Source: Armatimonadota bacterium | Lineage (GTDB): Bacteria; Armatimonadota; Chthonomonadetes; Chthonomonadales; CAJBBX01 | Length of the DNA stretch: 35,319 bases | Direction: 5' to 3' | NCBI GenBank assembly: GCA_026392115.1 | Contig: JAPLCQ010000077.1 | Span: forward strand, 1-35,319 | Part shown: positions 8,764 to 28,844 of the stretch, piece after piece | How the letters are laid out: each line of letters begins with the position of its first letter | How positions within the stretch are numbered: the first letter of the stretch is position 1 | Made by a program: the position numbers and the translations under genes | Notes under the pieces: model-generated | Databases searched by the model: none | Seen by the model: the letters and a program-made list of their open reading frames with translations, nothing else | What the model was told of the DNA's origin: nothing

Positions 8764-10542
8764 ATGAGCCTGAGAGCCGTCAAACACCCCGAGATCCTAA
8801 TCCAGCCGCTCGTGAGTGGCCCGACATCCGGATGGGAGGGGCACCACGCCACCAACCCCTGCTGTGTGCGCCTGAGCCTCGACCCGCGGGTCTTCCTCGG
8901 CTACCGCGCGGGCGGCACGGCCGACTACTTCCGCGTCGATGTCCACGACGTCTGGGCCAGCCACCTCGGTCTGGCGGTGTTGGACGCCCGCGGCGAGCAG
9001 GTCACGCACCGCCTGCCGCTGCCAATCTTCGCCATCGAGCGGTCCGTCTGGCTACCCCAGACCCAGGAGGAGTTCGAGGCCTACCAGCAGGGGCCGCACC
9101 GCGACGAGATCCTGGTGCTCCACGACTTCCGCTTCTGGGAGGACGGCCCGTGGCTCTACATGATCTACCACGAGGGCTCCGTCACGCAGGTCTTCGACTG
9201 CATCGTGCGGATGCCCGCCGCCGACTTCCTGGCCCGCGTGGCCCGCAGCATCGAGCTGGCCGCGTCGCCGGTTGAGGAGATCATGGACGAGTGGCGCGCG
9301 CTCTGGTGGGCGCCCGGCGTCTGGGAACCCGCGGGCGTTGGCGGTACGAACCGCATCTACTCCTCGTGGGCCAACAAGAACGACATCGTCTTCATTCGCC
9401 TCACCGACGGCTCCCTGCGAATGCTCCACCGGCCCGTGCCGGACGTGGCCGTCGTGGACACCAGGGGGCGGACGCACTGCCCCTCCAACGCGGCCGGGGT
9501 CGCCGACTTCGGCGTGGTGCAGAGCAGCATCCGGCCCGGCTACTTCGACAACTCGCACATCGGCAACAACGGCACTCCGATCCGCGCCTGCGTGGGCTCG
9601 CAGCCCCTCTTCGTGGACGTGGTCCACGGTGTGCGCAACCGAACCCTCTGTGAGGCGGACGGCAGCGGCTGGCGGCTCTTCTACCTCCCGTACCTGCGCC
9701 TGCTGGACGCCGACACGGGCGAGTGTCTCTACTGGTCGTCCGAGCCGCTGCTGGAAGCCGACGAGACGTGGCGCGGTTTCGTGGAGGAGGGGGAGTGGGT
9801 CAGCACCCTTGTGCATCTGGACGGCGTGATGTTCGCGGGCGGCCAGGTGGAGGCCGATGCCGGCAAGATCGGCCCCGATGACCTCTTCCACTTCTACACC
9901 GGTGTAGGCGACACGGCGGTGGCCCGCGCTTCGTTCCGCCTTCGCGACGTGGCGCCGTCGCAGGTACTGGCTGACATCGAGACCCGGCGCACTCGGCGGT
10001 CCATCCGGCTGGAGTGTGAACCCTCTCCGACGGTGGCCCTGCCCGAACCCCTCTGCGGCTGGGAGTGGGCCATCGAGGGAGATGGTCCCGCGCGGGAGTT
10101 GGCCATCGTGAGGCGTCTGGGTGAACGAGAGGTCCGGCGGCCCGTCACCGGGCGCCCCGGCTTCTTCGATGCAGACGGCGTCTTCTTCGACGGTCAGGCG
10201 CCCGAGCGTGTGGAATGCCTCGGTTGGCTGCTGCCCTACCGGGGTGTGCGCTGGGAGAACGGTCCCGCCGGGCCCATCACGGTTTCGGGTCTGGGTGTCA
10301 TGGCGCTGGACCTCGAGTGCCCCGAGCGCATCCTCTATCGCTCCGAGGAGCCCATCGGCGCCGTCGCCGAGACTGCCGGGTGGTCGTCCGGGGGCGCGCT
10401 GGACGACGCGGCCCGACCATCGGCGTTGCATATCCCCACGCATGTGCGGGCGGAGATGCGGCGCATCTACGAGCGGCGCCCCATGGGGCAGGACATGGCA
10501 CGCCACCTCCGCATCGAGAGCGGCCTCGAAGATGCTCCTTAG
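8764..10542 (+). CDS. GH130-like glycoside phosphorylase/hydrolase with extra C-terminal blade
   Basis: A 592-residue protein without signal peptide, so probably cytosolic. I read it as a divergent GH130-type five-bladed propeller. FLGYRAG (44-50) resembles the family's first blade. VLHDFRF (118-124) sits where GH130 has its EDPR motif, and D121 would be the general acid. LRMLHRP (218-224) matches the phosphate-contacting HR segment, and TPIRA then PLFVDVVHGV (271-290) match the GTPI...GWLxxYHG blade. YLPYLRLLDADTGECLYWS (308-326) and FHFYTGVGDT (375-384) match the closing strands. GH130 enzymes mostly phosphorolyse or hydrolyse beta-mannosides. The remaining 190 residues repeat part of the fold (GWLLPYRGVR at 487-496, LGVMALDLECPERILYRS at 510-527). 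Usual length is 300-400. GGAG at 8753-8756 precedes the ATG by 7 nt. Its last 11 nt overlap the next gene. The family call is from pattern memory and needs a profile search. Confidence 0.55.
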   Translation: MSLRAVKHPEILIQPLVSGPTSGWEGHHATNPCCVRLSLDPRVFLGYRAGGTADYFRVDVHDVWASHLGLAVLDARGEQVTHRLPLPIFAIERSVWLPQTQEEFEAYQQGPHRDEILVLHDFRFWEDGPWLYMIYHEGSVTQVFDCIVRMPAADFLARVARSIELAASPVEEIMDEWRALWWAPGVWEPAGVGGTNRIYSSWANKNDIVFIRLTDGSLRMLHRPVPDVAVVDTRGRTHCPSNAAGVADFGVVQSSIRPGYFDNSHIGNNGTPIRACVGSQPLFVDVVHGVRNRTLCEADGSGWRLFYLPYLRLLDADTGECLYWSSEPLLEADETWRGFVEEGEWVSTLVHLDGVMFAGGQVEADAGKIGPDDLFHFYTGVGDTAVARASFRLRDVAPSQVLADIETRRTRRSIRLECEPSPTVALPEPLCGWEWAIEGDGPARELAIVRRLGEREVRRPVTGRPGFFDADGVFFDGQAPERVECLGWLLPYRGVRWENGPAGPITVSGLGVMALDLECPERILYRSEEPIGAVAETAGWSSGGALDDAARPSALHIPTHVRAEMRRIYERRPMGQDMARHLRIESGLEDAP

Positions 10543-13003
10543 CGGTCTGGCCGCGCTGGCCGCGCTGGCCATCGGCGCGGTCGGCGGGCCGGATTCCGCC
10601 GCTGTCGTGGCCAACGGGACCTACCGCCTGCGGCCCGGGGACGGGTGTGTCCGCGTGGAGTTCGACCCCACGGGCAAGGGGCGCTACCTGCCGCGCGGCG
10701 CCGTCTTGCGGCCCTTCCGCCAATCAGTTCCCGCAGAAGTGCGGGTGGAGGGCGGCGCATTGCGCGTCACCGGCGGGCGCGCCTTCGTGCCCAACGTGGC
10801 GCGCGGCGGCTACGGCGGGCCCTTCGACCACGGCGAGGACCTGCCGCCCACGGGCACGCTGGGCCAGAGCTTCACGGTCCCGGCGGGCGGCCCCTGGCTC
10901 TCCGATGTCTGGGCGCTCCTCACCTGCAGCGGCGTGGCGGACTCGGCGGTCACCATGACGCTCCGCCGCGACGGCCCCGCGGGCCCGGTGGTCGCCTCTC
11001 GACGCGTGCGGCCGTTGCCCAACGACACCGAAGTCCACCTGCCGCTCCCGGAACCGTCCGAACCGGGCGTCTTCTACCTGGAGATCGGCGAAAAGCATGG
11101 CGGCGCCTACTGGTGGGGCTGCAACACGGATCAGCTCGCCGGCGGCCAGGCTTACGTCAACGGTGTGGCCCAGCCAGGCAGGGACTGGCGGCTCGGCTTC
11201 GCCATGGCGCAGGCGACCGCCTCCGACTGGACCATCCGGCCCCAGGGGCGCAGGCTCGTGGTGAACTGCGGGTCGCCGCCGTCCGCATCAGCCGCTGCCG
11301 CCCCGGCCCTGGCCCTGGAGTTCCCGTGGCGCCGCGACGGCTACGACACCTCGAACCCGGCGACCACGCCGTTCCGATCCATCGTCACCGACACGGGCTA
11401 TTGGCTGCCGGTCCATGCGTTCAAGCGGCTGGAGGCGGACTGGTCGCTGGAGCCCGCCTGCGCCGAGGCCCGCCTGCAAGGCGCGAACGGTTGCGACCTG
11501 ACGCTGACGCACGGGCGCGGCGCCCTTCAACCGCGCATGGACGCCGATCGGCTCAGCCTCCTGCTCGGCTCGGGTGGTAGCCTGGAGGCCAGGCCGTCGG
11601 GCGCCGCCCTACCGCCCCACTTCCCGCGCTTCTTCACGTCGGACCCCTCCCGCGACGCATTGCTGAACGAGTTCCTGCTCACCTACCTGACCAGCCATAC
11701 CTCGTGCCCCTCCACGTATGAGTTCGATACGCTGAAGCTGGCTTGGGTGGGCGGCCCCATCCACGACTCGCTGGAGCGCGTGTTGCTCCACTACACCTTC
11801 CGCATCGACCCGGACGGCTTCATCTGGAGCCGCGGCGACTCCCGTGGGTGGGACGGAGGCGACTGCGCTACCTTCGACAGCCGCCACTACGACGGCAACA
11901 CGCAGTGGATTCTGGCCTGCCGCCGGTGGTACTGCTGGACCGGCGACCGCGCCTTCCTGGCCAAGTGCCTGCCCACGGTGCGCAAGGCCGCGGGCTACCT
12001 GCTCAACGCCCTGCACGGCGACACGGGCCTCCTCACCATTGACAGCAAGCAGCACGCCGGTGTGGAGATCGACGGGGTCATCCCCTGGCCCAGCGACTAC
12101 TGGGACTGCATCCCGGCGGGGCGCCGGGTGGCCTACATCAACGCCTTCTACGCCCCGACGCTGTGGGCCGCCGCCGACCTGGAGCGGGCAGCGGGCGACC
12201 CCGTCCGCGCCTCCGAACTGGAGCGGCTGGCCGACCGCGCCCGGGAGCAGTTCAACTCCGCCTTCTGGGACGACAAGGCCGGGCGCTATATCGGCTGGAT
12301 CGACGCCAAGGGCGGCAAGCACGACCCGGGGATGACGCACGTGAACCTCATCGCCGCCGCCCACGGCCTGGCCGCGAAGCCGCAGGTCCAGCGCATGATG
12401 CGGTGGATGACGCTGGAACCCACGGCAAGCGGCAAGCCAGACACCTTCACCCGGTGGGTGTTCGCGCCGCGCTCCAACACGCGCCACTGCGCCGAGCAGT
12501 ACAACCGGTACAAGTACGAGGATTGGTGCGAGGACGGCGGCGCCATCCTCTGGACGGCCTACTACGAGATCATGACGCGGGCGCTCTGGCTCGGCGCCGA
12601 CGACGCCTGGGCCCGCTTCGGCAAGATATTGGGCCGATTCGCCGAGCCCGACCATCTCGTGGGCGGCAATCCGCTCTACCGAGGCGAGATCAACAACCAT
12701 GGCGGTCCTCCCGGCTCCGTGGGCGTCTGGGGCGAGTTCCCCGAGAGCGGCATCACGCCGGCAGCCTTCCTATACGCCTTCGTCGGCATCGACGCCGACC
12801 TGCGCGGCCTCCGTGTGCGACCGCGGCTGCCAAGGGGCCTGCAGTTCGCGGGGGTCGACGGACTGGTCTTCCGCGGTCGCAGGCTCAAGGTCACCGCCTA
12901 CCGCGACAAGGTGGTTGCGGAGTGGCGGGGAGGCCGGCTGGTGCGGAAGCTGAAACCCGGCGGAGAGGTTCTGATCACGGCGGCGGAGGTTGGGCGACCA
13001 TGA
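10532..13003 (+). CDS. Secreted six-hairpin (alpha/alpha)6 glycosidase-like protein
   Basis: An 823-residue exported protein. A short hydrophobic leader (about 1-19) suggests Sec export. Residues 80-230 look like an all-beta ligand-binding module (GTLGQSFTVPAGG near 108-120; FYLEIGEKHGG near 181-191). From about 365 a helical toroid follows, with the six-hairpin pattern RHYDGNTQW...WTGDRAFL (451-476), VEIDGVIPWPSDYWD (511-525) and, later, WCEDGGAILW. The C-terminal beta part (LRGLRVRPRLPRGLQF, then VTAYRDK) is the cap seen in GH78, GH94 and related families. I cannot assign a numbered family or the acid/base pair. The ATG at 10532 lies within the upstream gene (11-nt overlap) with only a weak ribosome binding site, so translation is probably coupled. 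It ends in an ATGA overlap with the UroD-like gene. Likely acts on an oligosaccharide outside the cytoplasm. Confidence 0.72.
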   Translation: MLLSGLAALAALAIGAVGGPDSAAVVANGTYRLRPGDGCVRVEFDPTGKGRYLPRGAVLRPFRQSVPAEVRVEGGALRVTGGRAFVPNVARGGYGGPFDHGEDLPPTGTLGQSFTVPAGGPWLSDVWALLTCSGVADSAVTMTLRRDGPAGPVVASRRVRPLPNDTEVHLPLPEPSEPGVFYLEIGEKHGGAYWWGCNTDQLAGGQAYVNGVAQPGRDWRLGFAMAQATASDWTIRPQGRRLVVNCGSPPSASAAAAPALALEFPWRRDGYDTSNPATTPFRSIVTDTGYWLPVHAFKRLEADWSLEPACAEARLQGANGCDLTLTHGRGALQPRMDADRLSLLLGSGGSLEARPSGAALPPHFPRFFTSDPSRDALLNEFLLTYLTSHTSCPSTYEFDTLKLAWVGGPIHDSLERVLLHYTFRIDPDGFIWSRGDSRGWDGGDCATFDSRHYDGNTQWILACRRWYCWTGDRAFLAKCLPTVRKAAGYLLNALHGDTGLLTIDSKQHAGVEIDGVIPWPSDYWDCIPAGRRVAYINAFYAPTLWAAADLERAAGDPVRASELERLADRAREQFNSAFWDDKAGRYIGWIDAKGGKHDPGMTHVNLIAAAHGLAAKPQVQRMMRWMTLEPTASGKPDTFTRWVFAPRSNTRHCAEQYNRYKYEDWCEDGGAILWTAYYEIMTRALWLGADDAWARFGKILGRFAEPDHLVGGNPLYRGEINNHGGPPGSVGVWGEFPESGITPAAFLYAFVGIDADLRGLRVRPRLPRGLQFAGVDGLVFRGRRLKVTAYRDKVVAEWRGGRLVRKLKPGGEVLITAAEVGRP

Positions 13004-14223
13004 CATCACGAGAGCGCGTCCTGCGCGCGCTGAGCTTCGAGGCTACCGACAGGCTGCCCCGCGACCTGGGCGCCATGCGCTCCACGGGCATCAGCGCCTT
13101 CGCCTACCCGAAGCTGGTGGAGGCGCTGGGCCTGCCCTACCGGCGTCCGAGGGTGCATGACACGCACCAGATGCTGGCCCTGCCCGACCTGGACGTGCTG
13201 GATGCCCTGGGCTGCGACGTGGTGACCATCGACGGCGGCGTTACCAACGCCTTCGACGAGCCCGAGAAGTGGCACGACGCCGACTTCGGCGGGCGCCTGC
13301 CTGCGCGAGTGCAGCATCCGGAGACCTTCTCCACCGACGCCGACGGCACGGTCTGGCAGCGGCAATGGAACATCCAGATGCCCGCATCCTCCTTCGTCTT
13401 CAACTCGGAGCACAATGGCCAGCCCGTGCTGGGTATGGACCAGCCCCTGCCACTGCTGGATCTCAAGCGGTACAAGCGGGACCTTGAGGCCTGGGCGCTG
13501 ACCGACGAACAGGTGCGTGCGGCCGTCGACCTCTGCCGCCGTGCGCGTGAGGCGACGGACCGGGCCCTCTTCTACGCCGACCACCTGAACGCCCGCATCG
13601 CCATCACGGCGCACGGCGGGCTGGGCGTCTTCCCGGTCATCTGCTTGCTGGAACCCGACTACGTCCACGAACTGCACGGCATCACCATCGATCACATGGC
13701 CGGCGAAGCCCGCAAGCTGGTTCCCGAGATCGCCCCGTACGTCGACATCGCACTCACCGGCGGCGACGACTGGGGCACCCAGAGCTCGCTCATCGCCTCG
13801 CCTGCCACCTTTCGCGAGCTGTTCCTGCCCTACTACCGTCGCCACAACGCCGAGGTCCACCGCCTCGCTCCCGGCCTCAAGACCTTCCTCCACTCATGCG
13901 GCGCGATCTACGACCTGCTGGGGATGCTGGTGGAGAGCGGCTTCGACATCATCAATCCGGTCCAGTGGCCGGCGGGCGGGCACGGTTACGAGGCCTGGAA
14001 GGAGAAGGTCCGGGGCCGCGCCTCGTTCTGGGGAGGCGGCGTGGACACGCAGCATACGCTCCCATCCGGGACCGTCGAGGAGGTCGAGCACGAAGTCCGG
14101 CAGGTTTGCGCCTGCCTGGGCGGGGGTGGCGGGTATGTCTTCAACAACATCCACAACCTGCTGGCCGAAGTGCCGCCGGAGAAGGTGATCGCCATGTACA
14201 TGACGGCAGGCGAGCCATGCTAA
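13000..14223 (+). CDS. UroD/MtaA-family protein (paralog 1 of 3)
   Basis: A 407-residue protein of the uroporphyrinogen decarboxylase/corrinoid methyltransferase superfamily, a TIM barrel. It opens with MTSRERVLRALSFEATDRLPRDL, the usual start of the UroD-like (not HemE) branch. H298 and C300 in FLHSCGAIYDLL form the His-x-Cys metal motif of MtaA/MtbA-type methyltransferases; at the position of their third ligand the protein reads FNNIHNL, offering H385 instead of Cys. The arginine-rich N-terminal substrate site of true HemE is absent. No signal peptide, so cytosolic. GGAGG at 12985-12989 precedes the ATG by 10 nt; the start overlaps the previous stop (ATGA) and the 3' end overlaps the next gene by 7 nt. 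Role unknown; its position between two secreted glycan proteins suggests catabolism of a released sugar or substituent. Confidence 0.85.
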   Translation: MTSRERVLRALSFEATDRLPRDLGAMRSTGISAFAYPKLVEALGLPYRRPRVHDTHQMLALPDLDVLDALGCDVVTIDGGVTNAFDEPEKWHDADFGGRLPARVQHPETFSTDADGTVWQRQWNIQMPASSFVFNSEHNGQPVLGMDQPLPLLDLKRYKRDLEAWALTDEQVRAAVDLCRRAREATDRALFYADHLNARIAITAHGGLGVFPVICLLEPDYVHELHGITIDHMAGEARKLVPEIAPYVDIALTGGDDWGTQSSLIASPATFRELFLPYYRRHNAEVHRLAPGLKTFLHSCGAIYDLLGMLVESGFDIINPVQWPAGGHGYEAWKEKVRGRASFWGGGVDTQHTLPSGTVEEVEHEVRQVCACLGGGGGYVFNNIHNLLAEVPPEKVIAMYMTAGEPC

Positions 14224-16448
14224 GCCGTCGTGCGGCGGCGTGCGTCGGTCTCCTTGCCGTCGCGGCCTCAGAGGCGGCGCACGGAGCCCCGCTCCCCGAC
14301 ATCCGTGCCGACTACCGCCTGCCCAGGCGGACCGTGACGCGGAAGATGCTCGGCCTCGGCCCGCGCGAGGTCTGGCTCGTTCCCTTCTCGTCGATCTCGT
14401 CCTACGCGCCGGCGGGCCACCGGTTCGACGAGTACGTGCTGAAGCTCGCCGCCGCGGGGCTGGTCAACCGCGACGGGCCGCTCGTGTGGCTCGATATGGT
14501 CGACTTCATGGGAGGGCCGGAGAGCAACCTGTCGGCTGAGCTCGAATGGCGGAGCTACTACTCCAGAACGCGGGGCCTCGCCTTCACGCCCCTGACCGGC
14601 GGGACCGATGCGCTGCTGCGCCGGGTGGCGCCCGCCCTGAACGGGCTGGTGGTCTACGACTGGGACTGCGGCGCTATGCCGTCGGACAACATCGTGCTGG
14701 CGCTGAACCTGGCGAGCCTGAACCGGTGCCTGCCCATCAGCCGCCGGCTCTATGAGGCGCACCGGGAGGCGCTGGCAGGCGTCTCCGTGGTGGCGCGGGT
14801 CGAGCGGCTGGGCTGGGACCGGCGGCGCATCTACGACTGGCTCCTGCGCGAGGCCTACCCGCGCATGGACCGGACGGCCGCCCACAGCCTCTGCGCCGGC
14901 TTCGCCGACCTGCGCCAGCGCGACGACTGGAGCTTCCTGCACGGACTGGACTACGCCTTCTACCGGCGGTGCCCCATCTTCAACCTCTCGCCGCTCCGGG
15001 CGCCGACACGCAATGGCGACTCGGCCATCGACGGCGACGCCGAGATGGCCGGCATCCTCGACCGCGTCCTCGGCTGCCTGACCACGACGCCGGCGCCCAT
15101 CTTCGGCTGGGCAGAGCCCGAGCCGGTCTATGTGGAGCGCGTCTCGGCGGCCGGCCACTACGTGAACTGCACGGCTGCCGCCTGCGACCTCTCCTTCCAT
15201 GCCGCCATGAAGCCGCTCAAGCGTCCGCCCTTCACGCAGTCCGGCAAGCCGACCGTCCAGCGGCCCGAGCGCAAGGTCTACCTGGCCTTCGTGGCCAACG
15301 AGGGCGACGCCATCAAGTCGCAGACCCTCATGTACAATCGCGCCTGGGCCTACCATCCGGGGCGGGGGAAGGTCGCCATCAACTGGGCGGTGAACCCGGC
15401 CAGCGTGGCGCTCTGGCCCGCCGTCTTCGAGTACTTCCAGTCCACGCGGACGCCCCTCGATACCTTCGTCGGCGCCCCCAACGGCGGAGGCTACCTGAGC
15501 CCATCGGCCAACCCGAAGCTCGACGCCTTCCTGCGCCACACGGCCCGGGCCATGCCGGCCATGGGCATCCGCGAGGTGGGGCTCTGGTACCCCACGCGTT
15601 CGGCGCTCGACGACTACGCGCGGCTGCTGCCCAATCTGCGGGGCATGGACATCACCCCGCATGAAGCGCGGCCCGGCGGCGAGCTGTTCACCGTGGGTAG
15701 CAGGGGCGTGCCGGTGGTGCGCTATCCCTCCGCGCTCTGGTACTGGCAGACGCGACCCGACCTGCAGAAGGAGTACCGCATCGACGTGCCCCGGTTCGTC
15801 GAACACCTCGAGGGGCTCTACCGCGCCGGGCCGCTGCCGGCCTTCGCCAATGTCTACGGCGTCGAGGCCAATCTGGTGGGCGAGATCGCCAGGCTGGCCG
15901 CAGCGCTGGACCCGTCCCGGTTCGAGGTCGTCGACTACGGGACCTTCTTCCACCTCGCCGGTCAAGTGGCGCGCCCTGTCGGCCCGCCGCCGGTGCCTCG
16001 GCATGCGCCGCTCGCATGGTCGTCGGACCTGATGCTCGATGCCGCGCGGTGGAGCGAGCGGCTGAACGAGGCCCGTGTCGAGCGCACACCGGCGGGGCTC
16101 CGTGTGGCGGTCGCTCCGGGGAAGACCTGGGCCGTGGCGGCGCTGCCGGCCGTCTCCGTGCCGCCCGGCGCCACGAGGGTTCACGTCCCGATCCGGTCGC
16201 TCTCCGGCACGGGCGCGGAGTGGATCTTCAAGCTCTACGGCGACCTGGACGGCTTCGGCCTGAACGACAACTGGTTCTTCGGCGGCGCCGCGTCGCCCAC
16301 GGTCGCTTTAATCCCGCTGGACCGCCGCATCCGCGCCAGGCCGGGACAGCCCTGGATGCTGCAACTCGGCGTGACGGGCCCGGCAGGCAGCGCGGCCGTC
16401 TTCGGCGATATCGAGTTCCTGAGTGATGCAATGGAGGTGAAGCGATGA
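14217..16448 (+). CDS. Secreted GxGYxYP-family putative glycoside hydrolase
   Basis: A 743-residue exported protein with a signal peptide ending near AHG (residue 23). The centre carries KVYLAFVANEGDAIKSQ (353-369) and VGAPNGGGYLSPSANP (418-433), which I recognise as the GxGYxYP family, described as putative glycoside hydrolases of unproven activity. The defining motif here is GGGYLSP, with serine in place of the second tyrosine. A Rossmann-like or TIM-barrel-like region surrounds it, and the last 150 residues or so (from about 600) look like a beta-sandwich carbohydrate-binding module. The ATG at 14217 overlaps the upstream UroD-like gene by 7 nt; alternatives downstream would cut into the signal peptide. 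The stop overlaps the next start (ATGA). Substrate unknown; co-location with GH20 and GH130-like genes suggests complex glycans. Confidence 0.75.
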   Translation: MLSRRAAACVGLLAVAASEAAHGAPLPDIRADYRLPRRTVTRKMLGLGPREVWLVPFSSISSYAPAGHRFDEYVLKLAAAGLVNRDGPLVWLDMVDFMGGPESNLSAELEWRSYYSRTRGLAFTPLTGGTDALLRRVAPALNGLVVYDWDCGAMPSDNIVLALNLASLNRCLPISRRLYEAHREALAGVSVVARVERLGWDRRRIYDWLLREAYPRMDRTAAHSLCAGFADLRQRDDWSFLHGLDYAFYRRCPIFNLSPLRAPTRNGDSAIDGDAEMAGILDRVLGCLTTTPAPIFGWAEPEPVYVERVSAAGHYVNCTAAACDLSFHAAMKPLKRPPFTQSGKPTVQRPERKVYLAFVANEGDAIKSQTLMYNRAWAYHPGRGKVAINWAVNPASVALWPAVFEYFQSTRTPLDTFVGAPNGGGYLSPSANPKLDAFLRHTARAMPAMGIREVGLWYPTRSALDDYARLLPNLRGMDITPHEARPGGELFTVGSRGVPVVRYPSALWYWQTRPDLQKEYRIDVPRFVEHLEGLYRAGPLPAFANVYGVEANLVGEIARLAAALDPSRFEVVDYGTFFHLAGQVARPVGPPPVPRHAPLAWSSDLMLDAARWSERLNEARVERTPAGLRVAVAPGKTWAVAALPAVSVPPGATRVHVPIRSLSGTGAEWIFKLYGDLDGFGLNDNWFFGGAASPTVALIPLDRRIRARPGQPWMLQLGVTGPAGSAAVFGDIEFLSDAMEVKR

Positions 16449-18679
16449 GGCTCTGGGCGGCAATAGTGGCGCTGGCGCCGGCAACCTGCCTGGGCGGCGC
16501 GGCGGCGGCAGAGGTCGGCGACGTGCGTTTGACGGCGTCCGGCGAGCGCACCTTCACCATCGACACGGGCGAGTACCGCCTGGAGTACGGCCCCGAGGCA
16601 GGGCGCAAGCTGGGCGCGGGCATCAGCATCACGCGGCGCTCGCGGCCCGATGCCGCCATCTTCACGCGCATGGCCCACGGCCCCAGTTTCAACGTCACCG
16701 ACTACGGCACCTTCATCGGCTACGAGCACAAGACGCCGAAGAAGGACTTCAGCACCTTCGGCTCGTTGGCCTGCAAGGAGACGCCCGACGCCGTGGTGGC
16801 GGTCATTCGGTCGCGCCGCACCTGGGCAGACTTCGAGGGGACGCTCCTGGCCTACAAGGCGACGCCCGGCCTGGTGCGCTGGACAGTAAAGGTCACGGCG
16901 CGGCAGGACAAGGCCGTCTACGAGCCACCCCTGCCCGACTGCGAGTTCCGCGTGAAGGGCGGCTGGGGCGGGCACCAGGTGGTGCGGCACATGTCGCAGC
17001 GCGGCCCGGTTTCGGGCATCGTCTACTTCCGCGACCTGGAGATGGCGACCGAGGCGCTCTACTTCGAGGAGTTCACGTCCCTCAGCCGGCTCTACGAGCT
17101 GACCGGCGCGGCCAACCCGTGGCTGGGCTACACCGACGGCGAGCAGCGGGGCGCCGTGCGCATGGGCCCGGCGGTCAGCGAGTTCCAGCCCGCCGAGGTG
17201 GGCGGCAAGCAGCAGCCGCCGGCGCCGTATGCCGAGAAGGTCGAGGTCCACGAGCGCTTCGGCTACCTGCGGCCCGAGGGCTTCCGCATCCCGAAGGGCG
17301 AGCGGCTGACCGTCGCCGACACCTACCTAGCGCTCCGGCCTGCTCTGCCCGACGACAACGTGGCCGTCTGCAAGGCCTTCGTCGAGATGCTTGCGCCCAT
17401 CTACCAGCGCCTGGCCAAGCCGCCGCTGGTGGCCGTCGACTGGGCGGGCCGGGTGGCCCCTCAACTCGTGAAAGACCTGCGGCGGCCCGAGAACACGCAC
17501 ACCACCAACGGCCTCTGGTGGCCCCGCGCCTATGTGGGCTACGAGCACAAGGACATCCAGCTCTGGACCGTGTCGCAGCTCCTGCTGCCCCTCATGGAGT
17601 ACTGCCGCAAGAACCCAGCGCAGAAGGAGGCCGCCTCTCTGCGCGACGACCTGGCCCGCTCGCTACCCGCCTTCTGGGACGAGAAGTGGAAGGGCTTCAC
17701 CAACAACCTGCCGCCTACGCAGGACCTGCACTACACCGGCGTCTACCTGCTCAACCCGGTCTACATGGTGGCCGACATCGCCGCCGCGGGCAACGCCGAC
17801 GCCCGGCGCATGCTTCTCGGCTACCGTCCCAAGCTGCTGGAGTTGGGCCGCAACTGCGGCTACGTATTCGCCGACGTCTCCACCAGCGACCTCCGCACCC
17901 AGAAGGTGCTCTATCAGTTCGACACCACCTGCATGTACCTGCACATCATGATGCGGCTGCACCAGATGAGCGGCGGGACCGACACCGAGGTCCTGGCCGC
18001 GGCTCGGGGCGCGGCCGACGCGCTGGCCAGGCGGCGCATGGACCTCTGCTGGGAGATCAACCAGACCGCCATCGGCGCACCGGCCTGCGCCTGTCTGGCC
18101 GAGGCCACCGGTGAGGCCCGCTACCGCGACTTGGCCTACATCCCGCTGGCCAACACGCTCCGATGGGCGTGGCTCTGGCAGGGATACTACGGCATCGGCA
18201 AGAGCCTGACCACCTTCTGGGGCTTCAGCGGCACCCCCTCCAACCCGCACTCCTGCGAGTATGAGAGCCACCAGGTGCGCCGGTTCATGAAGGACTACGT
18301 CGCCCTGGAGTCCGCCCGGCTGGCCCCCGACATCCGCCGAATGCTCGACGACTGCTGGCAGCGCGGCCCCACCCAGAGCTGGTTCGCCCTGCCGCCCACC
18401 ATCGCGACCGCCGGGGCCGGCAACTACATGGCCCCGGCCGACGGCTCCGAGAGCGACTGCGGCCGCGTCGCCCCAGACCAGATGGTGCCGCTGGAGGACT
18501 TCCACGGCGGCTGGGGCACCGATATGGAGTGGTTCCAGGCCAACTCCAAGCTGGGGCAGATCGGCCAGGAGATCTACGGCGCCGGCGGGCCCTTCTGGTA
18601 CGCCGTCTGGCAGGAAGAGCTGAACGCCGTCGCCGGCCGCCCGGCTCCCGCGACATCCCCGAAGAGAGGCAAACGATGA
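16445..18679 (+). CDS. Secreted protein of unknown function, beta-sandwich plus helical domain
   Basis: A 744-residue exported protein I do not recognise. A signal peptide covers residues 1-22 (AAA before EVGD). Residues 25-300 look all-beta, with aromatic-rich strands. From about 320 the protein is helical with a repeating hairpin rhythm, for example TTNGLWWPRAYVGYEHKD, TVSQLLLPLMEYC, LHYTGVYLLNPVYMVADIA and FDTTCMYLHIMMRLHQMSG. This supersandwich-plus-toroid architecture is shared by several glycoside hydrolase and polysaccharide lyase families, so an (alpha/alpha)n carbohydrate enzyme is a reasonable guess, not a finding. Near the C-terminus a conserved-looking stretch has HSCEYESHQVRRFMKDY. 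GGAGG at 16433-16437 is 7 nt before the ATG, and both ends overlap neighbours through ATGA, so it is firmly part of the operon. Confidence 0.8.
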   Translation: MRLWAAIVALAPATCLGGAAAAEVGDVRLTASGERTFTIDTGEYRLEYGPEAGRKLGAGISITRRSRPDAAIFTRMAHGPSFNVTDYGTFIGYEHKTPKKDFSTFGSLACKETPDAVVAVIRSRRTWADFEGTLLAYKATPGLVRWTVKVTARQDKAVYEPPLPDCEFRVKGGWGGHQVVRHMSQRGPVSGIVYFRDLEMATEALYFEEFTSLSRLYELTGAANPWLGYTDGEQRGAVRMGPAVSEFQPAEVGGKQQPPAPYAEKVEVHERFGYLRPEGFRIPKGERLTVADTYLALRPALPDDNVAVCKAFVEMLAPIYQRLAKPPLVAVDWAGRVAPQLVKDLRRPENTHTTNGLWWPRAYVGYEHKDIQLWTVSQLLLPLMEYCRKNPAQKEAASLRDDLARSLPAFWDEKWKGFTNNLPPTQDLHYTGVYLLNPVYMVADIAAAGNADARRMLLGYRPKLLELGRNCGYVFADVSTSDLRTQKVLYQFDTTCMYLHIMMRLHQMSGGTDTEVLAAARGAADALARRRMDLCWEINQTAIGAPACACLAEATGEARYRDLAYIPLANTLRWAWLWQGYYGIGKSLTTFWGFSGTPSNPHSCEYESHQVRRFMKDYVALESARLAPDIRRMLDDCWQRGPTQSWFALPPTIATAGAGNYMAPADGSESDCGRVAPDQMVPLEDFHGGWGTDMEWFQANSKLGQIGQEIYGAGGPFWYAVWQEELNAVAGRPAPATSPKRGKR

Positions 18680-19731
18680 CCATTACCAACCTGCGCCGTC
18701 GCCGGCCCGACTACACCCAGTTCATGAAGGTCCTGCGCCGCGAGGGGCGGCCCACGCACCTGCCCTTCTATGAGCACGGGTACAGCATGGGCTTCTTCAA
18801 GCAGCGCACCGGGCACGACTTCGCCGACGGCGGCCTGGCCAACCCCGCGTTCTGGCCCAAGTACGTCGACTTCTGGCTCGACATGGGCTTCGACGTGGTG
18901 CCGCTGGAGGTGGGGCCCAACATGTGGCTCCCGCCGGCACACTCCACATCGGGCTCCGTCAGCCGCGAGAGCGAGGCCCACGCCTGCATCCGCACCCTGG
19001 ACGAGTTCGAGCGCTACCCCTGGCCCGAGGCCGACGGCTACATTGACTACCGCCACTTCGAGACCGTGGCCGACCTGCTGCCCGACGGCGTCAAGATCGT
19101 GGGAGGCGTCGGCGGCGGCCCCTACGAGTGGGCCACTGTTCTCATGGGCGTTGTGGGCCTCTCGCTGGCCCTCTTCGACGACCCGGAGCTGGTGGGCCTC
19201 GTCTTCGGCAAACTCGGCGGCCTCTACCAGGCGGCGCACCGGCGCATCGCCTCCATGCCGGACATCGTGGCCACGCGGCAGGGCGACGACCTGGGCTTTA
19301 AGACCGCCACCTTCCTCAAGCCCGCCGACCTGCGCCGCCACGTTTTCCCGATCTACAAGGCCATCGTAAACGAGGCGCACCAGCGCGGCAAGCCCTTCAT
19401 CCTTCACTCCTGCGGCAACCTGGCCACGGTGTATGATGACCTTATCGACGATTGCGGCATCGATGCCAAGCACTCCTTCGAGGAGGCCATCTTGCCCGTT
19501 GAGGATTTCAAACGGCAGTACGGCGCCCGCTGCACGCCGCTGGGCGGGCTCGACGTCGACCTCATATGTCGCGGCACCGAGGCCGAAATCCGGGCGGCCA
19601 CCCGCTCCAAGATCGAGCAGTGCTATGCCGACGGCTACTGGGCTCTGGGCACCGGCAACTCGCTGACCGACTACATGCCCGTTGCGAACTACCTGACCAT
19701 GCTGGACGAGGGGATGAAGGTGGCCGGCTAG
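18676..19731 (+). CDS. UroD/MtaA-family protein (paralog 2 of 3)
   Basis: A 351-residue cytosolic member of the UroD-like superfamily. FILHSCGNLATVYDDLID contains H244 and C246, the His-x-Cys metal motif, and the following GLDVDLICRGT is the strand-loop that corresponds to GNxDP in HemE. Near the C-terminus, where MtaA-type enzymes provide a cysteine, this protein reads LGTGNSLTDYMP, with no Cys or His. The N-terminal half (GYSMGFFKQRTG, WLDMGFDVVPLEV) differs clearly from paralog 1, so this is not a recent duplicate. The start overlaps the upstream stop (ATGA) with GAGG 6 nt before it, and 19 bp separate it from the third paralog. Activity unknown: methyl transfer, decarboxylation or another barrel chemistry are all possible. 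Confidence 0.85.
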   Translation: MTITNLRRRRPDYTQFMKVLRREGRPTHLPFYEHGYSMGFFKQRTGHDFADGGLANPAFWPKYVDFWLDMGFDVVPLEVGPNMWLPPAHSTSGSVSRESEAHACIRTLDEFERYPWPEADGYIDYRHFETVADLLPDGVKIVGGVGGGPYEWATVLMGVVGLSLALFDDPELVGLVFGKLGGLYQAAHRRIASMPDIVATRQGDDLGFKTATFLKPADLRRHVFPIYKAIVNEAHQRGKPFILHSCGNLATVYDDLIDDCGIDAKHSFEEAILPVEDFKRQYGARCTPLGGLDVDLICRGTEAEIRAATRSKIEQCYADGYWALGTGNSLTDYMPVANYLTMLDEGMKVAG

Positions 19732-19750
19732 GTCCGGCCGGGGAGGCGAC

Positions 19751-20698
19751 ATGAGCGCGACATATACGGGACGCGAGCGGGTCCTTCGGGCGGCCAGGCG
19801 GCAGGGGCCTTCGCCCTTCCCGCGCCACCTGCGTCCTTGCCCGGCGCTGGCGGCCCACTTCAGGCGGGCATCCGGCCAGGAGGACCTCGACGCGCTCTTC
19901 GGCCTCGACCTCAAGTGGCTGCCCTGCGGCCGCCCGGCGGAGTTCGACTTCGCCGCCGAGATCAGCCAGGCCGAGTTCGACCGCCTGTTCGACTTCGACG
20001 AAGTGGCGAGGCAGGCCGACCTGGTCCGCGCCCAGGGCCTCGCCGCCGTCTCCTCCTACGAGTGCGGCACTTTCGAGGAGGCGCACGGGGTCCGCGGCTT
20101 GGAGGGCCTGCTGCTCGACCTGATGACCGATCCGGCCGAGACGCGGAGCTTCTTGGAGCGTATCGCCGTCAACAAGGCCCGTATCGCCGCGGGTTACGCC
20201 CGAGCCGGGGTCGACATCGTCTTCATCGGCGACGACATGGGCTCCCAGCGCTCGTTGCTGGTGCGCGAGGAGGCGTGGCACGCCTTCTTCCGTCCGCCGT
20301 TGGAGCGCATCGTCGGCGCGGTCCGCTCCGCTGCGCCGGGCGCGGCCATCGCGTACCACAGCTGCGGCCACATCGAGCCCTTGGTCCCGCACCTCATCGA
20401 CGCGGGCATCGATATCCTGGAGCCCATCCAGCCCGAGTGCAACGACGTGGCCCGCTTGGTGCGGCTCTACGGCGACCGGCTGGCCTTCTGGGGCGGCATC
20501 GGCGCACAGAGCGACATGGCCCGCGGGTCGGTCGACGACGTTCGGGAGGCGGTGCGCCGTCTCACGGGCCTCTTCGGCCCGGGCACGGGGCTCATCGTCG
20601 CGCCGGCCCACACGGTGGAGCCCGACACCCCGCCGGAGAACCTGACCGCGTTCGTGCAGGCCATCGACGAAGTGAACCGGGAGGCCGCCGCCCTATGA
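19751..20698 (+). CDS. UroD/MtaA-family protein (paralog 3 of 3)
   Basis: A compact 315-residue UroD-like protein, shorter than paralogs 1 and 2. It begins MSATYTGRERVLRAARRQGP, a UroD-like opening, but the usual N-terminal segment is shortened. AIAYHSCGHIEPLVPHLIDAG holds H203 and C205, and LIVAPAHTVEPDTPPENL gives H287 where the methyltransferases have cysteine (APGC). IGDDMGSQRSLLV (159-171) is the strand carrying the conserved aspartates. GGGAGG at 19741-19746 lies only 4 nt before the ATG. The 3' end overlaps the GH20 gene by 4 nt. Being directly coupled to an exported beta-hexosaminidase is unusual for this family. Function not known; paralog 1 shares the His substitution, paralog 2 does not. 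Confidence 0.85.
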   Translation: MSATYTGRERVLRAARRQGPSPFPRHLRPCPALAAHFRRASGQEDLDALFGLDLKWLPCGRPAEFDFAAEISQAEFDRLFDFDEVARQADLVRAQGLAAVSSYECGTFEEAHGVRGLEGLLLDLMTDPAETRSFLERIAVNKARIAAGYARAGVDIVFIGDDMGSQRSLLVREEAWHAFFRPPLERIVGAVRSAAPGAAIAYHSCGHIEPLVPHLIDAGIDILEPIQPECNDVARLVRLYGDRLAFWGGIGAQSDMARGSVDDVREAVRRLTGLFGPGTGLIVAPAHTVEPDTPPENLTAFVQAIDEVNREAAAL

Positions 20699-22671
20699 CC
20701 GCCGCAAGCCGCTCCGCCTGGCCGCTCCTCCTCGCCGCGTGCGCCCTGCGCTCCGCCGCCTCGGAGCCGCCCATCGTCCCCCGGCCCGCCCTGCTGGAGC
20801 CGCGCGCCGGGAGCTTCCGCCTGGCCGCCGACGTCCGCGTGCTGGTCGACCGGGGCTCGGCGGCGGCTCGCGGCGAGGCCGAGGGCGTGGCTCAGATGCT
20901 CCGAGCGGCCGGTCGGCCCCGGGCCTCGGTGAGGCTCGTTCGCGGCGGCTCGGCGCGGCCCGGCTCCGTGCTTCTCACCTCCAGTGGCGCGCTCGCCGAC
21001 CTCGGGCCGGAGGGCTACTCCCTCGTGGCGGGTCCCCGCGGGGTGGTCATCCGTGCGCGTGGAGCGGCGGGCTTCTTCTACGCCGGGCAGACGCTGGGGC
21101 AGATGCTGGAGGGCGCGCCCGCGCAATCCGCGCTGCGGTCCGTGCGCATCGTCGACCGTCCCAGCTTCGGTTGGCGCGGCCTCATGGTCGATTGCAGCCG
21201 CACCTTCTGGCGCAGGGCCTACCTCGAGCGGACGATCGACCGGCTGGCGCGCTACAAGATGAACGTCCTCCACCTGCACCTGACGGACGACCAGGGCTGG
21301 CGCGTGGAGATCAAGAGCCACCCGAGGCTGACGCGGGTGGGCGGCCGGTTCGCCGAGAGGTTCCACGAGCCCGCCGAGCGTCAGGGCTACTACACGCAGG
21401 ACGATATCCGGGCGCTGGTGCGCTACGCCGAGCGGCGGCACGTTACCCTCGTGCCCGAGCTGGAGATGCCCGGCCACTGCAACGCCGCGGGGGTGGCCTA
21501 CCCCGACCTCTCCTGCACCGGCGGCAAGTACGAGGTCTACCCCTACTTCACCGGTCCCGGCATCCAGACCGACGTCTTCTGCCCCGGCAATGACCGCGCC
21601 TTCGCGGTGATGGAGGACGCGCTGGACGAGGTGATGCGCCTCTTCCCATCGAAGTTCATCCACATCGGCGGCGACGAGTGCCCCAAAGACCGCTGGAAGG
21701 CCTGCCCGCGCTGCCAGGCCCGCATGCGATCCGAGGGCCTGAAGAGCGAGGAGGAGCTGCAGAGCTACTTCGTGCGGCGCATCGGGCGCTTCATCGCCTC
21801 CCGCGGGCGGCGCATGATCGGCTGGGACGAGATACTGGAGGGCGGGCTGGCGCCCGGTGCGGCGGTCATGTCCTGGCGCGGCGTGACCGGGGGCGTGGCG
21901 GCCGCGCGCATGGGCCATACGGTCGTCATGTCGCCCACGAGCCACTGCTACTTCGACTATGGCTACGACGCCATCTCCACCCGCACGGCCTATGCCTACG
22001 AGCCCGTGCCGAAGGAGCTGACGCCGGCGCAGAGCAGGCTGGTCCTCGGCGCACAGGCCAACATGTGGACCCACATCGCCCGCACCGAGCCGGATGTGGA
22101 CCGCCAGCTCTACCCCCGGCTGCTCGCACTGGCCGAAGCGACCTGGACGCCCCGCGGGCGCAAGGGCTGGGCCGACTTCAGCCGGCGGCTCGCGGTGCAG
22201 AAGCGCCGCCTGATTGCCCTGCGCGTGCCGTACCAGACCGCGGAGGGCGGCCCCTCCGAGTGGCCCGCCGCGAAGCCGCCGCTACCCGCAGCGGTCACCT
22301 CCAGCTCCGGCGTCTGGACGACCTACACCCCCGCCTTCGCCTTCGACGGCAATCCGGCCACGTACTACTGGAACGACCGTCCCATCCGCACCGGCGATAC
22401 GGTCACCGTCACGCTCCAGCAACCCACGCGGCTGCGCCTCGCCGAGGTCCATACCGGCCGCCCCGGCGTGGAGATCGCGCGGATGCACCACGGCGTGCTG
22501 GAGGTATCGGAAGACGGCCAGGCATTTGAGACCGTGGCGACCATCGCCGACGACGGAGTGGCCCGCGCCGCGCTGCAGGGCCGCCCAATCCGCGCGGTCC
22601 GCATTCGCGCCACCGCCGACCAGGGCACCAACTGGCTCATGGCAAGGGACTTCGTGCTCAAGGCTGAGTGA
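20695..22671 (+). CDS. Exported GH20 beta-N-acetylhexosaminidase with F5/8-type C-terminal domain
   Basis: A 658-residue enzyme removing terminal beta-linked GlcNAc or GalNAc by substrate-assisted catalysis. After the leader, residues 28-155 form the GH20 N-terminal domain (GPEGYSLVAGPRGVVIRA). The TIM barrel follows with GWRGLMVDCSRTFW (159-172), LHLHLTDDQGWR (192-203), LVPELEMPGH (252-261) and the catalytic pair D327-E328 in HIGGDECPKDRW. Residues 520 onward form a galactose-binding-like (F5/8 type C, CBM32-like) module. The leader carries LAAC at 13-16, a possible lipobox, but a signal peptidase I site at AAS (residue 23) is equally plausible. The ATG overlaps the upstream stop (ATGA); GGGAGG at 20679-20684 is 10 nt before it. 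It is the most secure enzyme of the cluster and points to amino-sugar-containing glycans. Confidence 0.96.
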   Translation: MTAASRSAWPLLLAACALRSAASEPPIVPRPALLEPRAGSFRLAADVRVLVDRGSAAARGEAEGVAQMLRAAGRPRASVRLVRGGSARPGSVLLTSSGALADLGPEGYSLVAGPRGVVIRARGAAGFFYAGQTLGQMLEGAPAQSALRSVRIVDRPSFGWRGLMVDCSRTFWRRAYLERTIDRLARYKMNVLHLHLTDDQGWRVEIKSHPRLTRVGGRFAERFHEPAERQGYYTQDDIRALVRYAERRHVTLVPELEMPGHCNAAGVAYPDLSCTGGKYEVYPYFTGPGIQTDVFCPGNDRAFAVMEDALDEVMRLFPSKFIHIGGDECPKDRWKACPRCQARMRSEGLKSEEELQSYFVRRIGRFIASRGRRMIGWDEILEGGLAPGAAVMSWRGVTGGVAAARMGHTVVMSPTSHCYFDYGYDAISTRTAYAYEPVPKELTPAQSRLVLGAQANMWTHIARTEPDVDRQLYPRLLALAEATWTPRGRKGWADFSRRLAVQKRRLIALRVPYQTAEGGPSEWPAAKPPLPAAVTSSSGVWTTYTPAFAFDGNPATYYWNDRPIRTGDTVTVTLQQPTRLRLAEVHTGRPGVEIARMHHGVLEVSEDGQAFETVATIADDGVARAALQGRPIRAVRIRATADQGTNWLMARDFVLKAE

Positions 22672-22750: not shown

Positions 22751-25321
22751 ATGTCCCTGGTTCGTGCGGCCTTGCTGGCCGCTCCTCTTCTTGCCCTCTG
22801 GTGCGCGGCCGCTTCGGCTGCTCCGGAGGGCGCTCGACGCGCGCCCGCGGCGCCGCTTCTGGCCACCGATCCCTACTTCAGCGTCTGGTCCTGCACCGAC
22901 GCCCTCACCGGCGGCGAGACCAGCCACTGGACCGGCGCCGCGCAGCCCCTCCACTCCCTCATCCGGGTGGACGGCGCCGCGTACCGCCTCATGGGCTCCG
23001 AGACCGCGGACCTGCCCGCCATGCGGCAGACCGCCTGCGTCGTCACACCCACGCGAACCACCTACCGCTTCGCCGGCGCGGGCGTGGCTGTGGAACTCTC
23101 CTTCCTGACGCCCATGCTGCCCGACGACCTAGACCAGCTTTCGCGCTCCCTGGGCTACATCACCTGGAAGGTGAACGCCACCGACGGCAGGAAGCACGCC
23201 GTGGCGGTCTACTTCGACGCCGGCGCGGAGCTCGCCGTCAACACGCCGGACCAGCCCGTGCGGTGGCAGCGAGTGCGGCCCGGAGGCGTTCCCGCGCTCT
23301 GCGTCGGCACCGTGGAGCAGCCCGTGCTGGCCAAGCGCGGCGACAACCTGCGCATCGACTGGGGACGGCTCTATCTGGCGCCGCTGCCGGGCCAGTCGGC
23401 CAAGCTGGGCGCGGCGTCCGGCGACCTCATGCGCCGAAGCTTCGCCGGCTCGGGCGCCCTTCCGGCCGACGATGCGGGCGCCCCGCGCCCCGTGAAGGAG
23501 GGCGGCGTCGCGCTGGCCACAGCCATCCCGCTCGGCTCCGTGGCCTCCGCGCCGGTGAGCCGCACCGTGCTGGTGGCGTATGACGACGGCCTCTGCATCC
23601 GCTACTTCGAGAACGACCTGAAGCCCTATTGGGCGCGCAACGGCGCCGGCGCCGCCCAGCTGATCAAGTCCGCCATCGCCGACCTGCCCGCGCTGGAGAA
23701 GCGGTGCGCCGACCTCGACCGCGAGCTGACCGCCGACTTCAAGCGCGTGGGCGGCGCGGACTTCGCATGGATCGCCACGCTGGCCTACCGCCAGGCCTTC
23801 GCCGGCAACAAGCTGGCCGCCGACCCCGCCGGGCAGCCCCTCTTCTTCCCCAAGGAGAACTTCAGCAACGGCTGCATCGCCACGGTCGACATCCTCTACC
23901 CCATGGGTCCGCAGTTCCTCCTGTTCGGTCCCGCCACGGCCCGCGCCATGCTCCAGCCCGTCATGGACTACAGCGCCTCCAACCGCTGGAAGTGGCCCTT
24001 CGCGCCGCACGACCTGGGCACCTATCCCCACGCCACCGCGCAGGTCTACGGCGGCGGCGAGCGAACCGAGGAGAACCAGATGCCGGTCGAGGAGTCGGGC
24101 AACCTGCTCATCCTCATGGCCGCCCTGGCCAAGATGGAAGGCAACGCCGACTACGCGACACACTTCTGGCCGACGCTCACCAGGTGGGCCGAGTACCTCC
24201 GCGACAAGGGCCTCGACCCCGAGAACCAGCTCTGCACCGACGACTTCGCCGGCCACCTGGCCCACAACGCGAACCTCTCCGCCAAGGCCATCGTGGCGCT
24301 GGGGGCCTACGGGATGCTCGCCGGGATGCGCGGCGACGCGGCCACGGCAGCCCGGTACACCGACCTGGCCAAAGGCTTCGCCTCGCGGTGGCGGGAAATG
24401 GCCGAAGACGGCGGGCACACGCGCCTCGCCTTCGACAAGCCCGGCACCTGGAGCCAGAAGTACAACATCGTCTGGGATCGCATCCTCGGCCTGGGCCTCT
24501 TCCCCGCCGAGCTCGGCCGCTCCGAGGTGGCCTACTACCGCTCCATCCTGAACCGCTACGGGCTGCCCTTGGACAACCGACAGCCCTACACCAAGCTGGA
24601 TTGGACGATCTGGAGCGCCACGCTGACGGGCAACCGCGAGGACTTCGACGCGCTCGTCAAGCCCCTGGCCGACATGCTGCAGGAGACGACCGACCGCGTG
24701 CCCATGACCGACTGGTACTGGACGCAGAATGCGAAGAAGGTGGGTTTCCAGGCCCGTCCGGTGGTGGGCGGAGCGCTCCTGCCGCTGCTCTACGACGAGG
24801 CGCTCTGGAAGAAGTGGGCCTCGCGCAACCCCTCCCGCCCCACCGGCTACGCCCCGCTGCCCGAGCGGCTCGAGCTCACCGTGGTCATACCCACGGGGCG
24901 CGAAGCGACCTGGCGATACACGACGCAGCAGCCCGCCGCGGGGTGGCAGCAACCCCGCTTCGCCGATGAGGCGTGGCAGACGGGCAAGGGCGGCTTCGGA
25001 ACCCAGGGCACCCCCGGCGCCGTCATCGGCACGGAGTGGTCCACGGGCGACATCTGGCTCCGCCGCGAGTTCGAGTGGCCCGCGGGCGTTTCGGGCGCGC
25101 TGGGGCTGCTGGTGCATCACGACGAGGACGCCGAGATCAGCATCGACGGCGTCAAGGCGGCGGCGCTCACCGGTTACGTCTCGGACTACGTCACCGTGCC
25201 CGTCTCCAAAGCCGCGCAAGCCGCGCTGACCCCCGGCCGCCACGTCCTGGCGGTCCACTGCCGCCAGACCACCGGCGGCCAGTTCATCGACGTGGGCATC
25301 GGCGTCAGCAAGAAGAAGTAG
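22751..25321 (+). CDS. Exported GtaA-type glutaminase family protein (DUF5127/DUF4965/DUF1793)
   Basis: An 856-residue protein with a clear signal peptide (cleavage near ASA, residue 24). It opens with PLLATDPYFSVWSC, then SHWTGAAQPLHSLIRVDGAAYRLMG, the hallmark start of GtaA-like proteins (DUF5127). The DUF4965 region includes YRQAFAGNKL and FSNGCIATVDILYPMGPQFLL; the helical DUF1793 region includes ESGNLLILMAALAK and WSQKYNIVWDRILGL. Fungal GtaA is reported as a glutaminase, but bacterial homologs are usually found near glycoside hydrolases and their substrate is unproven. The last 140 residues or so (from about 715) add a beta-sandwich resembling the GH2 sugar-binding domain, with GDIWLRREFEWP and HHDEDAEISIDGVKA. 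GGAG at 22741-22744 is 6 nt before the ATG. It ends the operon at a strong hairpin. Confidence 0.85.
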   Translation: MSLVRAALLAAPLLALWCAAASAAPEGARRAPAAPLLATDPYFSVWSCTDALTGGETSHWTGAAQPLHSLIRVDGAAYRLMGSETADLPAMRQTACVVTPTRTTYRFAGAGVAVELSFLTPMLPDDLDQLSRSLGYITWKVNATDGRKHAVAVYFDAGAELAVNTPDQPVRWQRVRPGGVPALCVGTVEQPVLAKRGDNLRIDWGRLYLAPLPGQSAKLGAASGDLMRRSFAGSGALPADDAGAPRPVKEGGVALATAIPLGSVASAPVSRTVLVAYDDGLCIRYFENDLKPYWARNGAGAAQLIKSAIADLPALEKRCADLDRELTADFKRVGGADFAWIATLAYRQAFAGNKLAADPAGQPLFFPKENFSNGCIATVDILYPMGPQFLLFGPATARAMLQPVMDYSASNRWKWPFAPHDLGTYPHATAQVYGGGERTEENQMPVEESGNLLILMAALAKMEGNADYATHFWPTLTRWAEYLRDKGLDPENQLCTDDFAGHLAHNANLSAKAIVALGAYGMLAGMRGDAATAARYTDLAKGFASRWREMAEDGGHTRLAFDKPGTWSQKYNIVWDRILGLGLFPAELGRSEVAYYRSILNRYGLPLDNRQPYTKLDWTIWSATLTGNREDFDALVKPLADMLQETTDRVPMTDWYWTQNAKKVGFQARPVVGGALLPLLYDEALWKKWASRNPSRPTGYAPLPERLELTVVIPTGREATWRYTTQQPAAGWQQPRFADEAWQTGKGGFGTQGTPGAVIGTEWSTGDIWLRREFEWPAGVSGALGLLVHHDEDAEISIDGVKAAALTGYVSDYVTVPVSKAAQAALTPGRHVLAVHCRQTTGGQFIDVGIGVSKKK

Positions 25322-28642: not shown

Positions 28643-28775
28643 GAGATTCTCCCGCGCGGCCGGGTATGGTCGCGCCAGCGGCGCGCCGCCCGCTTGCGGC
28701 GCTGTTACACTTCCCCGTACGGCCCGGCTCGGGCGGGCATTCCCCGCGCGCCGCTGTTCGGGCGCCCCGAATCGA

Positions 28776-28810
28776 CGAGCCGGGCGCCCCATGGGGGAGC
28801 GCCCGGCTCG
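28776..28810 (-). terminator. Hairpin terminator of the MFS gene
   Basis: A perfect 12-bp stem (CGAGCCGGGCGC at 28776-28787, GCGCCCGGCTCG at 28799-28810) with an 11-nt loop lies 34 nt past the MFS stop on the minus strand, inside the 202-bp gap before the SBBP gene. No T run of terminator type follows. It likely separates the two transcripts. I see no convincing promoter for the SBBP gene in this gap. Confidence 0.65.
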
Positions 28811-28844
28811 AGATGACCGAATGGACCGACTGCGGTGGGAGACC

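Follow-up and report, generated by a model that had tools for sequence, protein, structure and literature searches.

Three UroD-family proteins of an Armatimonadota bacterium as candidate substrate-specific methyltransferases sharing a corrinoid carrier

Introduction

The closest described systems are those of the MTI O-demethylases MtvB, VdmB, OdmB and MtoB and of CdmB, UroD-fold proteins that do not require the third cysteine of the metal site and work with a corrinoid protein (CP), an MTII and a RACo-type activator. In these known systems each operon has its own CP, and the substrates are methoxy-aromatics or haloalkanes (PMC13222342, PMC8630106). A His-Cys-Cys site goes along with sulfur or selenium transfer; O-demethylases replace one or both cysteines (PMC10418091). 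In type 1 mlp clusters, 2-3 UroD-family proteins, with Mlp2 and Mlp3 among them, are encoded together with a CP and a Ram/RACE protein; they act on S/Se-methyl groups, and nearly all of them, some Mlp1 proteins excepted, contain His-Cys-Cys (PMC10418091).

Here, we describe three UroD-family proteins (UroD1 to UroD3) encoded on a stretch of 35,319 nucleotides, hereafter the window, from an Armatimonadota bacterium. They resemble the MTI O-demethylases and CdmB in their fold, in lacking the third cysteine, in the CP-MTII-MTI operon layout found among UroD2 relatives and, as we propose, in working with a CP, an MTII and a RACo-type activator. In contrast to these systems, dozens of putative MTIs fall to one carrier, the gene neighbours are glycosidases and the sequences are far apart. 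This scale and the variety of metal sites are new, and our literature search yielded no description of a UroD-family expansion in Armatimonadota. As in the mlp clusters, several UroD-family proteins accompany a CP and an activator; however, the set described here has altered sites, comprises ~50 proteins per genome and is scattered over separate loci, and for UroD1-3 there is neither a His-Cys-Cys site nor a CP or RACo gene in the window.

Results

The genome (5.7 Mb, 98.6% complete) has uncultured Chthonomonas (Armatimonadota) as its nearest named records. UroD1-3 all score above the curated PF01208 cut-off of 23.9 bits (Table 1), and the AF2 models of UroD1 and UroD2 (pLDDT 89.8 and 89.3) show the UroD barrel, with Z-scores of 24.2 against UROD and 30.5 against UroD 4zr8, respectively. 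The models likewise match MtaA (4ay7; UroD1: Z 22.8, rmsd 3.9, 312 aligned residues; UroD2: Z 29.0, rmsd 3.0, 316 aligned residues). By sequence, UroD3 matches 4ay7 (phmmer E 7.5e-8; profile E 7.7e-17), and the search against solved structures yielded marginal matches at best for UroD2 and none for UroD1 when it was searched by itself.

Table 1. Positions of genes and predicted metal-site codons in the window
Feature	Position	Strand	Remarks
Glycosidase-like protein	10532..13003	+	GH78 rhamnosidase B-like (phmmer 2okx E 8.8e-7), weak GH116/GH65C
UroD1	13000..14223	+	407 aa, PF01208 60.7 bits; MTI candidate (UroD-type methyltransferase), site HxC..H
UroD1 His298-Ser-Cys300 codons	13891..13899	+	first two metal-ligand positions (predicted)
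UroD1 His385 codon	14152..14154	+	predicted third-ligand position
GxGYxYP putative glycoside hydrolase	14217..16448	+	PF14323 E 1.8e-25
744-aa protein between UroD1 and UroD2	16445..18679	+	no Pfam, NCBIfam or PDB sequence match
UroD2	18676..19731	+	351 aa, PF01208 53.2 bits; MTI candidate (UroD-type methyltransferase), site HxC..N
UroD2 His244-Ser-Cys246 codons	19405..19413	+	81/81 named relatives
UroD2 Asn328 codon	19657..19659	+	predicted third-ligand position, 81/81 named relatives
UroD3	19751..20698	+	315 aa, PF01208 78.7 bits; MTI candidate (UroD-type methyltransferase), site HxC..H
UroD3 His203-Ser-Cys205 codons	20357..20365	+	H203 in 30/30 relatives
UroD3 His287 codon	20609..20611	+	predicted third-ligand position, 30/30 relatives
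GH20 beta-hexosaminidase-like protein	20695..22671	+	PF00728 E 5.9e-106
GtaA/DUF5127/DUF4964 protein, downstream	22751..25321	+	PF16335 E 2.3e-132

With respect to known families, UroD1-3 reach 40.9, 40.6 and 52.7 bits on the NCBIfam models of MtaA/MtbA/CmuA, far under the cut-offs of 235-600. They share with HemE the fold and, in UroD1 and UroD3, the His at the C-terminal active-site position; however, UroD3 scores 20.1 bits on the curated hemE model (cut-off 302.95), and UroD1 and UroD2 do not match it. In contrast to UroD1-3, the HemE-type protein that this genome encodes separately (C116; 447 bits to PF01208) contains no HxC motif. In line with the sequence-only reading, which had held that the three paralogs are not recent copies, each falls into a supported tree clade of its own together with orthologs from other genomes.

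The three genes share an operon with glycosidase-like genes, and the start of uroD2 overlaps the preceding gene by four bases. Relatives of the 744-aa protein, which perhaps represents a new glycosidase-like or accessory family, are found beside UroD1 in G018 (L139), G019 (L138) and G032 (L143); apart from these, we found few conserved neighbours of UroD1 orthologs. Upstream (window 8764-10542) lies the gene for a 592-aa protein without Pfam match and with weak similarity to mannobiose phosphorylases, which G019 and G018 also retain in this operon. On the minus strand (25403-28948), a probably secreted protein of 1181 aa combines DUF7948, SBBP propeller repeats and bacterial Ig domains. In this genome, UroD1-3 have no gene for a CP, an MTII or RACo in their vicinity.

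All three proteins contain the HSCG motif (H298/C300, H244/C246 and H203/C205, respectively) that the sequence-only reading had pointed out. Among the UroD1 orthologs spanning the site, His298 is invariant and Cys300 is a cysteine in all but one; His385 is kept in 29 of 29 and corresponds in the alignment to the active-site His of UroD 4wsh. UroD3 His287 lines up both with MtaA's third Cys ('APGCGI' in 4ay7) and with the true UroD His ('NLGHGI' in 3cyv/4wsh), and position 205 alternates between Cys and Asp among the relatives. In UroD2, the position of the MtaA third Cys is occupied by Asn328, and H244, C246 and N328 are present in all 81 relatives from Armatimonadota, Hydrogenedentota, Planctomycetota, Clostridia, Thermotogota, Chloroflexota and archaea. 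Hence the altered sites are kept by conservation and have not decayed, and the residue at the third position as well as the model scores place UroD1-3 outside the MtaA/MtbA family of methylcobamide:CoM methyltransferases, with which they share the His-x-Cys motif.

In the models of UroD1 and UroD2, His-x-Cys stands at the end of a strand (294-300 in UroD1) and the third position directly follows the last strand, so that the predicted site would lie at the barrel mouth, as in the UroD family. The earlier proposal of a metal site that is kept but altered, with His in UroD1 and UroD3 and neither His nor Cys in UroD2, agrees with these data. The conserved Cys316 of UroD2 was considered as an overlooked ligand and rejected on topology: it ends the helix 302-316 that leads to the last strand, which in the model puts it at the barrel bottom and not at the mouth. 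Two other UroD2 residues present in 81/81 relatives, His266 and Glu269 (window 19471-19482), lie where strand 264-266 ends or directly behind it and could serve as alternative third metal ligands.

The sequence-only reading had overlooked that the three paralogs belong to a large family. A first look at this genome gave 65 UroD candidates, 53 of which were confirmed as PF01208 matches; at least one further copy of paralog 2, on contig C24, comes on top of these. These 53 paralogs display 20 different site patterns (14 HxC..H, 8 DxD..H, 5 HxC..D, 3 HxC..C, 3 HxC..N, 3 HxD..H and many singletons). In a tree of the paralogs and some orthologs, a quick tree with many weak nodes, the second position underwent no fewer than 14 changes and the third position no fewer than 18. 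Since just three of the 53 proteins have His-x-Cys..Cys, the supposedly lost cysteine is the minority state, and an altered site is the family norm in this genome. UroD itself carries His at the third-ligand position; the absence of the third Cys, which had been taken as unusual, is therefore not so here.

Several relatives are encoded together with corrinoid genes. In a Chloroflexi locus (L265), the order is CP, Pterin_bind MTII, DUF1638 and UroD2 relative, and in Kosmotogaceae (L241) alpha-amylase, an unknown protein, UroD2 relative, CP and RACo. DUF1638 follows the UroD2 relative in two Hydrogenedentota loci (L224, L227), and in Bathyarchaeota (L244) RACo precedes it on the opposite strand. 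All these UroD2 relatives have the His-Cys-Asn site. Thus, UroD2 is unlikely to be a partner subunit, as had been considered previously, because its relatives stand alone with a CP and its partners in compact operons. UroD3 relatives lie beside a homocysteine methyltransferase in three loci (L125, L131, L134) and a few genes from a CP in four others (L180-L183). Among the loci examined, no UroD1 ortholog was seen beside a CP.

Across phyla, DUF1638 recurs beside UroD-type methyltransferases and CPs (L265:2216-2947, L224, L227, L004:11536-12276) and is probably a component of the corrinoid system. Further operons link UroD proteins to glycosidases: in Caldicoprobacter, a GH78 rhamnosidase precedes paralog 2, whose C. 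oshimai version is 58% identical, and in G042 an alpha-L-fucosidase lies between MtaB and the UroDs in an operon that also contains a CP. In G041, a relative from the same taxonomic order, a 606-aa protein adjoining MtaB (L196:10512-12332) comprises UroD fused to B12-binding_2 and B12-binding in a CmuA-like layout.

We surveyed 205 Armatimonadota genomes for RACo (PF14574) and CPs (PF02607). RACo is present in 104 of the 105 genomes that have three or more UroD matches vs one of the 100 others (Fisher 4e-57, not corrected for descent; species are not independent). The problem of shared descent is partly answered by covariation at lower ranks: RACo and the UroD expansion are gained or lost together within four families and also covary within four genera. 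RACo-bearing genomes contain 1-5 CPs, usually one or two, and their number does not rise with that of UroD (Spearman -0.18). Exactly one CP is found in 17 of the 32 genomes with ≥50 UroD candidates, and G198 combines ~130 candidates with a single CP directly after RACo; above ~10 per genome, such counts refer to first-look candidates and not to confirmed genes. There are exceptions: G147 has RACo and many UroD proteins but no PF02607 match, and in the UroD-rich G134 RACo was not found.

Of the 20 loci examined, 11 have the genes for RACo and CP side by side. In L178:7055-9602, the pair is embedded with PriA, peptide deformylase (Def), Fmt, MetK and a B12 radical SAM protein. The Pfam assignments of these neighbours led us to reject an ACS/CODH cluster. 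This arrangement, with a single PF02607 protein, occurs in many genomes apparently without MetH, which suggests a role as a split methionine synthase.

A genome-wide search for corrinoid proteins, as proposed in the sequence-only reading, revealed candidate partners on other contigs, which that reading had missed. C36 encodes, in this order, a CP, a 358-aa unknown protein, UroD, a PF02574 homocysteine methyltransferase (HcyMT), DUF1638, Methyltransf_24 and UroD. The CP contains a DLHDIG motif, has MtgC/MtbC as best models and is the sole MtbC/MtgC-like CP of the genome. The 358-aa protein (L004:8360-9436), of unassigned family, has a 46% relative (L192:3002-4072) in a CP-MtaB-fucosidase-UroD operon. 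On C32, a UroD with a His-Cys-Cys site is followed by RACo. C103 encodes a methyl-THF:corrinoid methyltransferase (MTII; 296 bits vs the NCBIfam cut-off of 259) with MTHFR directly after it. The genome also encodes a full MetH. Neither CdhC/ACS nor COX1/haem-copper oxidase was found in it, which argues for an anaerobic, non-acetogenic route. The Wood-Ljungdahl pathway was therefore discarded as methyl acceptor. As a further difference from MtaA and MtbA, there is no indication of a CoM pathway.

Discussion

We consider it likely that UroD1-3 act as substrate-specific MTI enzymes in a demethylation system that depends on corrinoid and has a hub-and-spoke layout. An association with CP, MTII and activator is seen for relatives of UroD2 and UroD3 and, genome-wide, in the co-occurrence with RACo, though not locally in the window. 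Each protein would bind a methylated compound, probably released by the co-encoded glycosidases, and hold it at the altered site at the barrel mouth, where His-Cys-His or His-Cys and the conserved Asn may bind a metal. The methyl group would then be transferred to one shared carrier in its Co(I) state, the CP of C36, which the RACo of C32 would re-reduce, and passed on to tetrahydrofolate via the MTII beside MTHFR on C103. Alternatively, the PF02574 enzyme beside the carrier could transfer it to homocysteine. Judged from the gene neighbourhood, the methyl donors are most likely methylated sugars; genome-wide, the commonest neighbours in UroD operons are Gfo/Idh/MocA sugar dehydrogenases and sugar-type permeases.

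This neighbourhood would also fit a different role, in which UroD1-3 are not methyltransferases, the barrel being reused for another sugar reaction (decarboxylation, retro-aldol or metal-site hydrolysis) and RACo tracking a few paralogs that serve corrinoids. UroD itself needs neither metal nor corrinoid, the three genes sit among glycosidases and not corrinoid genes, and the 20 site patterns of the paralogs also speak for it. We nevertheless regard this as unlikely: relatives of UroD2 and UroD3 that share their site residues are encoded in corrinoid operons, and HxC is a methyltransferase-type motif that the genome's own HemE lacks.

A variant of our preferred explanation differs in the methyl acceptor. 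Here, CP, HcyMT and RACo would form a split methionine synthase, and the system would mainly serve methionine salvage, the UroDs scavenging methyl groups solely to make methionine and not to feed C1 oxidation. HcyMT lies beside the CP in this genome and beside UroD3 relatives, and in L178 the RACo-CP pair has MetK, Def and Fmt in its vicinity. However, the genome also possesses the full MetH and the MTII-MTHFR pair, and dozens of demethylases seem too many for methionine supply, which renders this variant rather doubtful as the main function. Finally, S- or Se-methyl transfer as by MtaA/MtbA or the mlp clusters is highly improbable, despite the retained HxC and MtaA 4ay7 being among the closest structures by sequence, since His or Asn replaces the third Cys in all three proteins and is conserved within their clades, whereas His-Cys-Cys is the rule for S/Se enzymes (PMC10418091) and occurs in so few of the paralogs.

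Of the sequence-only reading, the altered site stands, as does the view that the reaction is probably something other than thiol methylation; the unusual loss of a cysteine does not, and a partner subunit is unlikely. Returning to hub-and-spoke demethylation, its broadest form, in which one or two CPs and one activator would take methyl groups from 50-130 different UroD-type demethylases whose metal sites are evolving (HxC..H, HxD..H, DxD..H, HxC..N), so that anaerobic bacteria could broadly strip O-methyl groups from glycans, appears to us evenly poised between true and false.

The huge UroD-family expansions of uncultured anaerobes currently carry haem-enzyme annotations. Should they prove to be demethylases that share a single B12 carrier, a function could be assigned to a large class of annotations, and a candidate route for the anaerobic breakdown of methylated glycans would emerge. 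The UroD set samples a metal site whose second and third ligand positions changed many times, and a carrier recognised by dozens of partners would offer a tractable case of hub-protein evolution.
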